From: Corallococcus soli
Lineage (GTDB): Bacteria; Myxococcota; Myxococcia; Myxococcales; Myxococcaceae
Length of the DNA stretch: 64,000 nucleotides
Assembly: GCF_014930455.1 (NCBI RefSeq)
Contig: NZ_JAAIYO010000003.1
Location: 806,001 to 870,000 of the forward strand
Reading direction: 5' to 3'
Positions 2,967-7,874 of the stretch are shown here, one piece after another. How positions within the stretch are numbered: the first letter of the stretch is position 1; each line of letters begins with the position of its first letter. Under the pieces are notes generated by a model, which did not search any database, was not told the DNA's origin, and worked only from the letters and a program-made list of their open reading frames with translations. The position numbers were made by a program, and so were the translations under genes.

Positions 2967-2980
2967 CGCACAGGGCCGAT

Positions 2981-3052
2981 TTCTTCCGCCTCCAGCTTCG
3001 TGGCGCCGCAGCGCTCCGGTGCCGTCGGGTGCGTCTTCACGCAGCAACTCAC
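2981..3052 (-). pseudogene. Truncated copy of the neighbouring Cys-rich gene
   Basis: Read on the minus strand, this stretch starts with ATG and encodes CCVKTHPTAPER followed by CGATKLEAE. The nine residues CGATKLEAE, and much of their DNA (TCCGCCTCCAGCTTCGTGGC on the plus strand), recur in the gene at 3467-3733. After that motif similarity stops and the frame runs on as antisense of the kinase gene. The arrangement (Cys-rich gene, DUSAM gene, broken Cys-rich gene) suggests a tandem duplication whose distal copy was lost. The rest of the 2846-3095 interval shows no other gene. Confidence 0.5.
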
Positions 3053-3095
3053 CTGGCGGTCGGCCGGATTCCAGTGCCGCGCGGAGGGCTGGCCG

Positions 3096-3464
3096 TCAGT
3101 CCAGGTCCTCCAGCGCCAACTCTGCCTGCTCGCGATAGAGTGGCACCACCTCCTCTGCGAGCAGGTTCTCCAGCACCTTCCGCGCGCCAGCGGAGTCGCG
3201 CTCCTGCCGGAGACGCCGGACTTCGGACCTCACGACCATCAGCCGCATGGAGCCCTCGCGGATCCGCGCCCGGGCTTCGCGCAGGAGGGCGGTCGCGGTG
3301 GCCACGTCTTGGACTGCTGCCTGGGCGTCCGTGGCGGGTATCGCCACCTCGCGCGCTGTGCGCAACAGCAGCCCTCTCACGTCGGGAGTGAGCACCAACG
3401 CCTCGCCTGCCTCGATGCGGGCTGCGAGTTCGCGCACGCCGTCCCAGTTGATGTCATTGGTCAT
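3096..3464 (-). CDS. DUSAM domain protein
   Basis: This 122-residue protein matches the DUSAM domain (TIGR02267), a myxobacterial paralogous family of unknown function. It opens with the family's typical INWDGVRELAARIEAGE, continues with LTPDVRGLLLRTAREV and REARARIREGSMRLM, and ends VVPLYREQAELALEDLD. It is cytoplasmic and mostly helical. I chose the ATG at 3464 because family members start there (MTNDINWD); an in-frame upstream start exists at 3509 but lies inside the preceding gene. The preceding Cys-rich gene ends two bases before this ATG, so they are translationally adjacent. DUSAM genes often sit beside small exported or toxin-like genes in Myxococcales; an accessory or immunity role here is only an inference. 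Confidence 0.8.
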   Translation of the reverse strand: MTNDINWDGVRELAARIEAGEALVLTPDVRGLLLRTAREVAIPATDAQAAVQDVATATALLREARARIREGSMRLMVVRSEVRRLRQERDSAGARKVLENLLAEEVVPLYREQAELALEDLD

Positions 3465-3466
3465 GC

Positions 3467-3733
3467 TCACGGTCCCTTCTTCCGTGAGTGGCATTTGTCT
3501 TCCGGCCACTCACCCTGCTGTCCCTCGCAGGACCTGAAGCAGTCGTAGCAGGAGGTCTTCCAGTTCTCCTCCTTGCAGGCGACGTAGGTTTCGAGACACA
3601 GCTTCTTCCATTTCGGAAGGTCGGGCCTGGCCAACTCGACGGCTCTCTTCGCGGCGAAGAGGATTTGCTCCGCCTCCAGCTTCGTGGCGCCACAGGCCCA
3701 TGGTGACGCGCATGGCCACCGTGCTTCGTACAT
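3467..3733 (-). CDS. Small Cys-rich protein, possibly frameshifted at its start
   Basis: The minus-strand frame ending at 3467 gives an 88-residue product from the ATG at 3733. Visible motifs are CGATKLEAE, then KWKKLCLETYVACKEENW, then CYDCFRSCEGQ and a terminal WPEDKC; the Cys and Trp spacing looks like a real disulfide-stabilised or metal-binding module. No signal peptide is present from this start. Another minus-strand frame, starting at 3833, encodes the plausible-looking PLLSAFAYTEWRWLQ and would join this one by a frameshift near base 3700. The gene may therefore be a pseudogene of a longer protein. It forms a pair with the DUSAM gene. Function unknown. Confidence 0.55.
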   Translation of the reverse strand: MYEARWPCASPWACGATKLEAEQILFAAKRAVELARPDLPKWKKLCLETYVACKEENWKTSCYDCFRSCEGQQGEWPEDKCHSRKKGP

Positions 3734-3910
3734 CGCGGCGCGGCACCTGCTGAAGCCACCTCCACTCGGTGTACGCAAACGCTGACAGGAGGGGCCGCAG
3801 AGACCCGTGCTTTTCGTCCTTGAATGAGGCCAAGACGCCGGAGGGCTGGCGCTCGGGCTGCTGTTTCTGCTGAGGTGCGCAACGGCTGTCAAATCCCCTG
3901 AGAGGATACG

Positions 3911-4117
3911 ATGCTCCCCACCGCGAAGAAGATTGGAAAGACGTTGCTTGCCCTCACGACTGGCGCTGTCTTGTCGTTTGGGGCCACGATGGCCTTTGCC
4001 GCTCCGGAAGCGTCCGTGAAGCTGTGCATCCCCGCCGAGTGCAATTCCAGCTGTCAGGCCAGCGGCGCAGCCGGCGGGGCCTGCCTTCGCGGCCAGTGCG
4101 GATGCTATTTTTTTTGA
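3911..4117 (+). CDS. Exported defensin-like peptide (CS-alpha-beta cysteine pattern)
   Basis: This 68-residue precursor has a clear signal peptide: KK near the N-terminus, hydrophobic TLLALTTGAVLSFG, and a cleavage site after AFA at residue 30. The predicted mature peptide of 38 residues has six cysteines spaced C-x4-C-x3-C-x9-C-x4-C-x-C, with GAC supplying the Gly of the G-x-C element. This is the CS-alpha-beta defensin signature (C2-x3-C3 helix clamp, G-x-C4, C5-x-C6 beta hairpin). Myxobacterial defensin-like peptides are known, for example from Anaeromyxobacter. AGAGGA at 3901-3906 precedes the ATG. A -24/-12-like element (GG at 3848, GC at 3860) lies about 50 bases upstream but could be chance. 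The gene is monocistronic. An antimicrobial role is inferred from the fold only. Confidence 0.8.
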   Translation: MLPTAKKIGKTLLALTTGAVLSFGATMAFAAPEASVKLCIPAECNSSCQASGAAGGACLRGQCGCYFF

Positions 4118-4218: not shown

Positions 4219-5616
4219 CTACGGCGTGGGCAGACCCGCTTCCAGCGCCGCACGGATGGTGGCGTCGGTGAAGCTCGTGCCCCAGACTGCGTTGACCTGC
4301 GCCGCGACGAAGGCGGCGCCCGGCTGCACGCTGCCCACGGTGGCCTCGAACATCTGCACGCGTGGGTCCGTGAGCTCCAGGAGCCGGGGCGCCACGTCGC
4401 GGACGTCGCGGTCCTGCTGCTGGAGCGCGCGCACGCCCTGGAGCCACGCGCGCACTCCGCCGTCCGCGTGGGGGATGAGCAGCGTCTGCTCCGCCGCGCC
4501 CAGCTTCAGGAGGAGGTGCCCCACGCCCAGCGTGATGGCGACGCTGCCGTTCGCGGCGAGCGTGGGCCCGTGGTCCGGGGCCAGCGTGTTCCAGTTCACG
4601 GCCCCGGTGTTCTGGAAGTACAGCGGCGTGAAGCGCTGGGGCGCGAGGGACGCGAGGGCGCGCGTGTGCTCCACGGGGATGAGGGTGTCCCAGTCGTCAT
4701 GGAGGATGAGGAACGGCGTCTGGACCTGGTCGACGAGGTGGGCCGCATCCCAGCGCGAGTAGTCCGTGCCCGACGTCGTCACCGGGTCGCCGCCGGTGGT
4801 GGCGAAGATGCGGCGGAAGTAGGGCTCGAAGAACTGCTGGTAGCGCGTGCGCATCGCCGGGTCGCTCACGCGCGAGGGGACGATGCGGTTTACGTAGTCC
4901 ACCTCCTGGGCGAAGTCGGACAGGGGAGACAGGGCGACGCCCACGCGCGGCGTCACGGTGGCCGGTGCATCCGCCGCGGCGTAGAGCGCCTCGTAGCCGC
5001 CCCAGGATCCGCCGAAGACGCCGATGCGGGTCGTGTCCACGTTGGAGGCCTGGGCGAGGAAGCGCATGCCCGCGTTCATGTCGTCGCGATCGTTCTGGAG
5101 ATCGCCACCCGCGTAGAACCGGCCGAAGACGGCGAGCACGCCGAAGTCATGGAACAGGTAGACGAACGCCTCACCGGAGATGATCTCCGGCGTCGTGGGC
5201 GTGAAGGCGATGGGTGACGAGCCCGGCCCGTGGTGCGGCTCACTGTCGTCGGGGTGCAGGCCATTGCCGCGCGAGGCCCACTTCGCGTCCACGGCCTCTC
5301 CGGTCCAGGAGATGCCGTCATACGGCTTGGTGATCATCACCGTGGGGGACACGCCCGGCTTCCGGGGCGGGAACCACTGGGCGTAGGTGGCGGCCCGGCC
5401 GGGCACCTCCAGCCTCAGGAGCTGGTAGGGCCACGTCTGGCCCGCGGCGTTCAGCTCGCCCCCGCCAATCCGCGTGACCTGGACGCCTCCCGGGTCGGTG
5501 GGGGTTTGACCCGGGCCCTGGCAGGAGTTGGAGGCCGAATCCGTGGTGCTGCAGCAGGCCGTGGGGAGGGTGCCGAGCAGGACGAGGGAGAGCAGGGTGG
5601 ACGAGAAGAGGCGCAT
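4219..5616 (-). CDS. Lipoprotein alpha/beta hydrolase, S9-like
   Basis: This protein of about 465 residues begins with a lipoprotein signal, LLGTLPTAC, so it should be anchored after export. The core is an alpha/beta hydrolase: the nucleophile elbow is GVFGGSWGGYEAL (G-x-S-x-G), the acid is probably in LILHDDWDTLIPVEH, and a late His in LGVGHLLL completes a plausible triad. LFHDFGVLAVFGRFYAGGDLQNDRDD resembles the lid/oxyanion region of prolyl-oligopeptidase-like (S9) enzymes. The ATG at 5616 puts the hydrophobic signal at the N-terminus; a GTG at 5631 is also in frame. It is transcribed away from glsA with about 70 bases between the two starts. The substrate (peptide or ester) cannot be told. 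Confidence 0.75.
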   Translation of the reverse strand: MRLFSSTLLSLVLLGTLPTACCSTTDSASNSCQGPGQTPTDPGGVQVTRIGGGELNAAGQTWPYQLLRLEVPGRAATYAQWFPPRKPGVSPTVMITKPYDGISWTGEAVDAKWASRGNGLHPDDSEPHHGPGSSPIAFTPTTPEIISGEAFVYLFHDFGVLAVFGRFYAGGDLQNDRDDMNAGMRFLAQASNVDTTRIGVFGGSWGGYEALYAAADAPATVTPRVGVALSPLSDFAQEVDYVNRIVPSRVSDPAMRTRYQQFFEPYFRRIFATTGGDPVTTSGTDYSRWDAAHLVDQVQTPFLILHDDWDTLIPVEHTRALASLAPQRFTPLYFQNTGAVNWNTLAPDHGPTLAANGSVAITLGVGHLLLKLGAAEQTLLIPHADGGVRAWLQGVRALQQQDRDVRDVAPRLLELTDPRVQMFEATVGSVQPGAAFVAAQVNAVWGTSFTDATIRAALEAGLPTP

Positions 5617-5687
5617 GAACCCAGCAGACACCGCGGCGCGGATTTTCTGAAAGGCTCCGCGCCCTTTCCGGACGAGGATGGGAGCGC

Positions 5688-6599
5688 ATGGACTACCAGG
5701 CGGTGTTGCACGACGTGTGGGATGCGGTGCGGCCGGTGCTGGGGCAGGGTCGCGTGGCGACCTACATCCCGGCGTTGGCGGCGGTGGATCCGCGCCGCTT
5801 CGGCATGGCGCTCGCGACGGTGGAGGGCGACGTGTACGGCGTGGGTGACTGGCGCGAGCCGTTCTCCATCCAGAGCATCTCCAAGGTGTTCACGCTGGCC
5901 ATGGCCCTGTCACGGGACGGGGACGCGCTGTGGCGCCGGGTGGGCAAGGAGCCCTCCGGCAATCCGTTCAACTCCCTGGTGCAGCTGGAGTACGAGCACG
6001 GCATCCCGCGCAACCCGTTCATCAACGCGGGCGCGCTGGTCATCACCGACCGCCTGCAGCAGCTCACCGGGGACGCGCGCGGCACGCTGCGTGACTTCCT
6101 TCGCGCGGAGAGCGGCAACCCGTTGGTGGACTTCGATCCGGTGATCGCCGCGTCGGAGGCGGAGCACGGTCACCGCAACCGCGCGCTGGCCCACTTCATG
6201 GCGAGCTACGGCAACATGCAGAGCCCCGTCGCGGAGGTGCTGGAGCACTACTTCTGGCAATGCTCGCTGGCGATGAGCTGCGCGGATCTGGCCCGGGCGT
6301 GCGGGTTCCTCGCGCGCCATGGGGAGCGCGAGGACGGGGCGCGGTTGCTCACGCGCAGTCAGGCCAAGCAGGTCAACGCGGTGATGCTCACCTGCGGCAC
6401 CTACGACGCGGCGGGGGAGTTCGCCTACCGCGTGGGCCTGCCCGGCAAGAGCGGCGTGGGCGGGGGCATCATCGCCGTCATCCCCAACCGCTGCGGCCTG
6501 TGCGTGTGGAGCCCCGGGCTGGATGCCCAGGGCAACTCGGTGGCGGGCATGGAGGCGTTGGATCGGTTCACGACGCTGACGGGCCTGTCCATCTTCTGA
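5688..6599 (+). CDS. glsA: Glutaminase
   Basis: This 303-residue protein matches the serine-dependent glutaminase family (GlsA), which hydrolyses glutamine to glutamate and ammonia in the cytoplasm. The catalytic Ser-x-x-Lys is in FSIQSISKVF (about residues 64-67). Other family blocks are GNPFNSLVQLE, PRNPFINAGAL, ASYGNMQSPV and the C-terminal GLPGKSGVGGGI with PGLDAQGNSVAG. Length is normal for the family, with no extra domains. It is divergent from the lipoprotein hydrolase and about 50 to 80 bases ahead of the MFS gene on the same strand, so both may share a promoter. Confidence 0.95.
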   Translation: MDYQAVLHDVWDAVRPVLGQGRVATYIPALAAVDPRRFGMALATVEGDVYGVGDWREPFSIQSISKVFTLAMALSRDGDALWRRVGKEPSGNPFNSLVQLEYEHGIPRNPFINAGALVITDRLQQLTGDARGTLRDFLRAESGNPLVDFDPVIAASEAEHGHRNRALAHFMASYGNMQSPVAEVLEHYFWQCSLAMSCADLARACGFLARHGEREDGARLLTRSQAKQVNAVMLTCGTYDAAGEFAYRVGLPGKSGVGGGIIAVIPNRCGLCVWSPGLDAQGNSVAGMEALDRFTTLTGLSIF

Positions 6600-6650: not shown

Positions 6651-7874
6651 ATGCTCGGGCGCGGTCTAGGTTGCGCGGCCGTGACTCCTTCCGTGCCCGT
6701 TCCCCGTCCGCGTCCCGCGCTCCTCACGCTCGCCTACCTGGCATTCATCAGCCTGGGGTTGCCGGACGCGGTGCTCGGCGTCGCGTGGCCTTCCTTGCGC
6801 AGCACCTTCGGCCTGTCGCAGGCGGGGATGGGAGCCATCCTCTCCGCGGCGGCGATCGCGTACTTCACCTCCGGGCTGCTCGCGGGGCGGTTGATGCGCC
6901 TGCTCAAGCTGGGCCTGCTGCTGGCCCTGAGCACGGGGCTGGTGGCCCTGGGGCTCGCGGGGTACGCGACCCTGTCGGTGTTCGCGTTGTTCCTGCTCGC
7001 GGCGTGCGCCATCGGGTTCGGTTCAGGTGCCATCGACTCCGCGCTCAACAACTACGCGGCGCAGAACTTCGGACCCCGGCACATGAACTGGCTGCATGCC
7101 GCCTACAGCGTGGGCGCGGCGCTGGGGCCGGTGCTGATGACGGCGCTGCTCACGCGGGGCGCCGGGTGGCGTTCGGGGTACGCCGTCATCGGCATGGTGC
7201 TGGGCCTGCTCGCGCTGACGTTCCTGGTGATGCGCCGGCAGTGGGATGGCCCGGCGCGGACCGGCGACGAGGCCAGCGCGGGGGTGCCCACCGCCAGCGC
7301 GGCCGAAGCGCTGCGGCGCCCCCGGGTGTGGCTGCAGATCGCCACGTTCTTCTTCTACACGGGCGTGGAGGTGACGGCCGGGCAGTGGAGCTTCACGGTG
7401 CTCACGGAGGGCCGGGGCCTGCCCACGGCGGAGGCCGGTACGTGGGTGAGCCTCTACTGGGGCAGCCTGCTCGTGGGGCGCGTCCTTTCGGGCTTCATCG
7501 TCGACCATCTGGGGTCGGTGCGGATGCTGCGCGGAAGCACGGCGCTGGCGGTGGTGGGCGCGCTGCTGTTCGCGATCCCCAGCGTGCCACCCTTCCTGGG
7601 CCTGATGCTGCTGGGGTTCGCGCTGGCCCCCATCTTCCCGGGCCTCATGTCGGAGACGCCCCGCCGGGTGGGCACCGACGTCTCCGCGCACGCGGTGGGC
7701 TTCCAGGTGAGCGCGGCCACCGCGGGCGTGGCCGCGCTGCCGAGCCTCGCGGGCGTCATCGCGGAGAAGTGGGGGCTGGCGTACGTCGCGCCCCACATCC
7801 TCGCGTGCGCCGTGATGCTGACCGTGCTGCACGGCATCCTGTCCGCGTCCGCGGACAGGCCCGTGGCACGCTGA
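6651..7874 (+). CDS. Major facilitator superfamily permease
   Basis: This protein of about 400 residues has roughly twelve hydrophobic segments and a central cytoplasmic loop (about residues 195-220), as in MFS transporters. After LTLAYLAFISLGLPDAVLG the first half has LAGRLMRLLKLGLLLALSTG, the position of the usual loop 2-3 motif. The second half begins with WLQIATFFFYTGVEVTAGQW. The EVTAGQW feature and the family of short sugar permeases (FucP/YbjJ-like) are similar, but the substrate is not evident. The start could be the ATG at 6651, which has GGAGGG almost touching it, or the GTG at 6681; neither changes the first membrane helix. It lies three bases from the convergent phosphoesterase stop. 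Confidence 0.85.
   Translation: MLGRGLGCAAVTPSVPVPRPRPALLTLAYLAFISLGLPDAVLGVAWPSLRSTFGLSQAGMGAILSAAAIAYFTSGLLAGRLMRLLKLGLLLALSTGLVALGLAGYATLSVFALFLLAACAIGFGSGAIDSALNNYAAQNFGPRHMNWLHAAYSVGAALGPVLMTALLTRGAGWRSGYAVIGMVLGLLALTFLVMRRQWDGPARTGDEASAGVPTASAAEALRRPRVWLQIATFFFYTGVEVTAGQWSFTVLTEGRGLPTAEAGTWVSLYWGSLLVGRVLSGFIVDHLGSVRMLRGSTALAVVGALLFAIPSVPPFLGLMLLGFALAPIFPGLMSETPRRVGTDVSAHAVGFQVSAATAGVAALPSLAGVIAEKWGLAYVAPHILACAVMLTVLHGILSASADRPVAR

Follow-up and report, generated by a model that had tools for sequence, protein, structure and literature searches.

A predicted cis-defensin, divergent from its corallosin-type relatives, encoded in a rearranged junction of the Corallococcus soli genome

Bacterial defensins have been proposed to be ancestral to the defensins of eukaryotes. 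According to a published survey, the bacterial cis-defensins comprise 74 sequences in five classes, with class I made up of 20 sequences, 15 of them from Corallococcus, and with the motif KCXN noted in four class I members (Cardoso et al. 2024, PMC11561630). The same survey describes xanthusin-1 of Myxococcus xanthus, a class II peptide whose NMR structure reveals the CS-alpha-beta fold, which was expressed in several media in pure culture without prey, and more so on solid medium, and which displayed no antimicrobial activity in the experiments described there (PMC11561630). Actinomycesin and actifensin, from Actinomyces, hit Gram-positive bacteria via cell-wall synthesis (PMC8819291, PMC6989792, PMC12284004); actifensin binds lipid II, and its GXGC N-terminus has been linked to that binding (PMC12284004).

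Here we analyzed a 64,000-nucleotide stretch (the window) of the genome of Corallococcus soli, a predatory bacterium of soil; the window encodes a short peptide that is almost certainly a cis-defensin (CS-alpha-beta) and a divergent member of the corallosin-type Corallococcus clade.

The precursor, its cysteine pattern and its predicted fold

The open reading frame was confirmed in the window (Table 1) and specifies a precursor of 68 residues that consists of a signal part, MLPTAKKIGKTLLALTTGAVLSFGATMAFA, followed by a mature part, APEASVKLCIPAECNSSCQASGAAGGACLRGQCGCYFF. As is characteristic of CS-alpha-beta precursors, the sequence features are those of a signal peptide, with lysines in the n-region, a hydrophobic core and a site that fits the -3/-1 rule, and secretion is predicted. 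Cleavage is likely to occur at AFA/A, as judged by the -3/-1 rule only, which would leave eight residues ahead of the first cysteine; alternatively, by analogy with relatives, it may occur at PEA/SVKLC, which would leave four, and the mature peptide would accordingly span some 34 to 38 residues. With three disulfides formed, the calculated mass would be about 3765.2 Da for the AFA/A product and 3396.9 Da for the PEA/S product, in each case 6 Da less than in the reduced state. The SFGAT core of the signal peptide is kept across the family, and no lipobox precedes Cys39 in the window precursor. (A match to the NCBIfam model Phr_nterm, with an E-value of 0.0015 and below the cut-off, spans the signal peptide only and was rejected.)

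Table 1. Positions of the defensin-like gene, its predicted parts and the adjoining cassette in the window
Feature	Position	Strand	Details and basis
Defensin-like precursor gene	3911..4117	+	68 aa, ATG-TGA; homologues
GAGAGG, putative purine-rich ribosome-binding site	3900..3905	+	Sequence reading; similar stretches 5' of several homologue starts
Sec-type signal peptide (predicted), residues 1-30	3911..4000	+	K6/K7 n-region, hydrophobic h-region, -3/-1 rule
Mature peptide APEASVKLCIPAECNSSCQASGAAGGACLRGQCGCYFF	4001..4114	+	Three predicted disulfides; AlphaFold2, PDB matches
Predicted alpha-helix bearing C44-x3-C48	4031..4060	+	AlphaFold2
Predicted two-strand sheet, gamma-core G56-x-C58...C63-x-C65, GACLR replacing GKCxN	4073..4108	+	Alignment, AlphaFold2
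DUSAM (DUF2379/TIGR02267) gene	3096-3464	-	In junction between upstream block and hydrolase
Fragments resembling exported cysteine-rich partner of DUSAM gene	3467-3700, 2978-3053	-	Displaced

The cysteines of the peptide are spaced C39-x4-C44-x3-C48-x9-C58-x4-C63-x-C65, with G56-x-C58 in addition, a spacing identical in alignments to that of cobatoxin 1 and nasonin-1M. No second CS-alpha-beta pattern occurs in any of the window's six frames (64 kb), and 60 order-2 Markov shuffles of the window yielded none. Pfam models Defensin_2, Toxin_2, Toxin_3 and Defensin gave sub-threshold matches only, none at the gathering score (for Toxin_3, 16.8 bits against a gathering threshold of 21.5).

AlphaFold2 predicted a helix (residues 11-20) and two strands (25-29 and 32-36) in the 38-residue mature peptide. 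With 32 aligned sequences as input the mean pLDDT was 81.4 (about 90 from residue 11 onward), and the window sequence by itself gave the same elements at a mean pLDDT of 80.0. The best fit in the PDB was the scorpion toxin BmBKTx1 (1r1g; VIA-align Z 5.9, rmsd 0.7 A over 31 residues; Foldseek TM 0.74, prob 1.00), and 3e8y matched the model to 0.5 A over 30 residues; other matches included nasonin-1, tamapin variants, plant defensins and drosomycin. The Foldseek E-values were weak (best 0.011), owing to the shortness of the chain, and nearly the whole match list consisted of one fold. The family profile, when compared with the PDB, detected alpha-KTx toxins and CS-alpha-beta defensins, down to an E-value of 1.5e-6. 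From the fold, the three disulfides would be expected to pair 1-4, 2-5 and 3-6.

Relatives, tree and constraint

When 96 genomes of the GTDB family were searched in all six frames, relatives that share the precursor plan came to light. Using a 21-row profile, we found at least one family member in each of the 16 genomes of the genus and, at E <= 0.001, matches in 36 of 195 genomes of the phylum, 35 of which lie within this family; the named relatives are Corallococcus terminator and C. sicarius. A pattern scan of genome and viral contigs with the window protein as query returned no relatives, even though the six-frame genome search had found some, the scan being too strict for a protein so short and divergent; with a corallosin-A relative as query the scan returned three loci, two of them in named Corallococcus. 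Besides the window gene, the genome that contains the window has one other clear member, which is of corallosin type (G000:C7:36300-36500), and the own-genome paralogue L035 bears KCXN.

Alignment of 32 mature peptides showed no variation in the last five cysteines, whereas Cys1 is absent in L026 alone (in this sequence, at 1489-1686, R replaces the first cysteine and the other five are kept). That homologues occur in 16 of 16 genus genomes, that all six cysteines are kept in all but one homologue and that pN/pS lies below 1 in most groups establish that the window gene is real.

In a maximum-likelihood tree of 33 precursors, 22 rows with a first loop of x2, x3 or x8 were separated with support of 98/97 from 11 rows with x4, the latter including the window peptide, L002 and the corallosin-type peptides. 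(The x8 loop occurs in L049, L050 and L054, as CQGSQGGTC or CVGSHGGSC; most of their clade has x2 or x3 instead.) The closest relative found was L002, which comes from another genome, is 58% identical to the window peptide and has all its cysteines intact. This identity hints that the two peptides may be sisters, although in the tree the position of the window peptide inside the x4 clade has low support (52/76) and both L002 and L030 form long branches. The gamma-core reads GACLR in the window peptide and GQCSR in L002, the GKCxN lysine being absent from both; corallosin-type relatives bear GKCxN, GKCxK or similar (for example, GFRLGKCVN). What appears to be new, as read from the alignment, is a divergent window/L002 subgroup in which the six cysteines are kept and the GKCxN lysine is missing. 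The mature window peptide contains a single K, a single R and two E and has a net charge of 0, a value that is not specific to it (0 in L008, and +1 in the own-genome paralogue).

Group-averaged dN/dS was 0.33 for the signal peptide and 0.39 for the mature part, and the mature peptide of the syntenic corallosin-B is almost invariant (dN/dS of about 0.01). The window gene gave a dN/dS of about 0.55 against L002 in both the signal and the mature part, and a pN/pS of about 0.7 for the mature part against corallosin-A, versus 0.34 among corallosin-A genes. All these comparisons are short and partly saturated; the values support coding and general constraint. A hypervariable, conotoxin-like reading with positive selection on the mature peptide received no general support, pairs with values above 1 resting on few changes.

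These findings bear out much of what an earlier note had read from the sequence, namely a precursor with a signal peptide and a full CS-alpha-beta cysteine motif of defensin type. The defensin reading also withstood those of the note's refuting conditions that were put to it: a helix and two-strand clamp is predicted (with and without homologues), relatives occur in related genomes, and the predicted fold matches solved CS-alpha-beta peptides. The x4 first loop, which that note had called unusually short, proved ordinary; as the tree places the x4 rows together, the loop marks the peptide's own clade, and it exceeds the x2 or x3 of most of the family. The standing of the peptide as a rare myxobacterial defensin is lessened by the survey's 15 Corallococcus class I peptides and its NMR structure of the M. 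xanthus relative (PMC11561630).

Genomic surroundings

Downstream of the defensin gene, and convergent with it, lies a gene for an exported alpha/beta hydrolase (4219-5631), followed by a glutaminase gene (5688-6599). Of the 16 genomes of the genus, 12 carry the hydrolase gene, with 82-89% identity in those other than the window genome. The upstream block (1-2851) shares 97% identity with blocks in C. terminator and G018, its gene at 1832-2845 being found in G020 too, whereas the right flank is 85-91% identical; the block was probably transferred recently. Only 4 of the 16 genomes have its phosphotransferase gene, the copies outside the window genome being 96-99% identical, which also suggests recent transfer. 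The defensin gene lies between these flanks, within an accessory junction that has been rearranged, beside the DUSAM gene and fragments that resemble its partner, and the stretch at 2978-3700 looks like a scrambled two-gene cassette. In L092 the DUSAM gene and its apparent partner seem to form an intact pair, and Corallococcus carries multiple copies of this stretch. In the seven relatives examined, other genes occupy the junction and a CS-alpha-beta pattern is absent from it. In C. terminator (G030; locus L091), a different small lipoprotein-like cysteine ORF, MKAYVVAGALAAGLLAGCGG..., is found about 206 bases to the left of the hydrolase block. Genes for small exported proteins may therefore turn over at the junction.

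The corallosin-A genes (L101, L102, L109, L110 and L111) have flanks that are mostly unrelated and share hardly more than a gene-sized stretch of roughly 210-315 bp, surroundings that suggest relocation of a single gene; corallosin-B is largely syntenic among its carriers. Transport and modification genes, which the earlier note had found to be lacking nearby, were indeed not recognized among the neighbors examined, except that an ORF at 6651-7874 reads as MFS-transporter-like. No actifensin-like immunity, transporter or protease operon was found among these neighbors.

Possible roles and comparison with known systems

In the mechanism that we propose, the Sec route would export the precursor, the signal peptide would be removed, three disulfides would form in the oxidizing periplasm to give a stable peptide of 34-38 residues, and the peptide would then be released from the cell. 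Of these steps, Sec export is likely, as is oxidation that yields three disulfides. The function that we tentatively favor is that of an effector acting outside the cell, in predation or in antagonism between microbes, which would bind a target in the envelope of a competitor, a candidate being lipid II, as for actifensin and plectasin; such binding is favored over charge-based membrane disruption because the net charge of the peptide is 0. We consider the account of an exported cis-defensin to be probable as a whole, and the specific role in antagonism or predation to be tentative. Antimicrobial defensins are usually cationic, which counts against an effector role for an uncharged peptide, as do the missing GXGC motif and the lack of an actifensin-like operon among the neighbors. 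The reported inactivity of xanthusin-1 and its expression without prey (PMC11561630) point the same way.

In view of the peptide's lack of net charge and of the inactivity of the only myxobacterial relative tested, we place level with the effector role the possibility that the defensin scaffold serves the producer itself, as a self or kin signal, a component of the cell surface or matrix, or an inhibitor of hydrolases. The expression of xanthusin-1 in pure culture would fit such a role, no self-immunity gene was recognized near the window gene, and the family is present in every genome of the genus, with the near-invariance of corallosin-B suiting a constant internal role for that paralogue. 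However, the window gene is accessory, with no defensin at the site in the seven relatives and only a single close relative found. It is unlikely that the gene is a decaying duplicate of a corallosin gene that has lost its function under relaxed constraint: its place among gene fragments, its raised pN/pS to corallosin-A and the few charged residues that the peptide retains would be in keeping with decay, yet the six cysteines, conserved glycines, signal peptide, start and stop are all intact, and 58% identity is kept with L002, whose cysteines are likewise intact. Blocking of potassium (or other ion) channels in eukaryotic grazers such as amoebae and nematodes, in the manner of scorpion alpha-KTx, is also unlikely. 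Although the alpha-KTx short toxins are the nearest matches both in solved structure and in sequence, and corallosin-type relatives bear GKCxN (KCXN being noted in class I; PMC11561630), the lysine of the pore-blocking motif is lacking in the window peptide and L002, and a similar fold by itself shows no function. A coincidental cysteine pattern in a chance ORF, which a short ORF in a GC-rich genome might bring to mind, has a negligible likelihood and was rejected, given the homologues in all genus genomes, the empty shuffles and a fold predicted twice.

Beyond the preferred reading of an exported cis-defensin, we regard as doubtful the further proposal of a functionally separate defensin branch, made up of the window peptide and L002, without the cationic GKCxN face (the window member being neutral), with a non-antimicrobial or narrow-target role and a location in an accessory rearranged junction that varies between species. 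Bacterial defensins gain a well-supported, divergent member, and a regularity emerges in that each Corallococcus genome searched carries at least one family member. The presence of a syntenic paralogue together with scattered, variable paralogues in one genus means that deletions could tell whether these peptides act as weapon, signal or otherwise.

Among described systems, actifensin is likewise a CS-alpha-beta peptide with three disulfides from a bacterium, with 44% identity to the window peptide in a 27-residue alignment; it differs in its 9-residue first loop, its GXGC N-terminus, its ABC-transporter operon and its lack of a classical signal peptide; neither that N-terminus nor such an operon was found in the window peptide and its neighbors. 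Scorpion short alpha-KTx toxins (BmBKTx1, cobatoxin 1) and wasp nasonin-1 match in fold to within 0.5-1.3 A but are of animal origin, and the window peptide lacks the GKCxN lysine; the likeness is one of fold and spacing and does not imply descent. AdDLP of Anaeromyxobacter, likened here by its description in the literature, is likewise a myxobacterial defensin-like peptide. Xanthusin-1 and class II share with the window peptide a myxobacterial exported CS-alpha-beta precursor, and class II is probably the x2/x3/x8 clade found here, with its common SFGAT core, xanthusin-1 having been set against it by description only. Closest are class I and the corallosins, which have in common with the window peptide the genus Corallococcus, a short Cys1-Cys2 loop, the three-disulfide CS-alpha-beta pattern, the gamma-core and a Sec-type precursor. 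The window peptide differs from them in lacking KCXN (which is not class-defining) and in its net charge; its N-terminal tail may differ too, as it would have eight residues (AFA/A) or four (PEA/S), the class I peptides having one to four, and its precursor is only about 47-60% identical to those of the corallosin-type clade. This clade is probably the published class I, the two being equated by genus, loop, paralogue motif and tree and not by sequence comparison, and the window peptide is a new, divergent member of an already published group of bacterial defensins.
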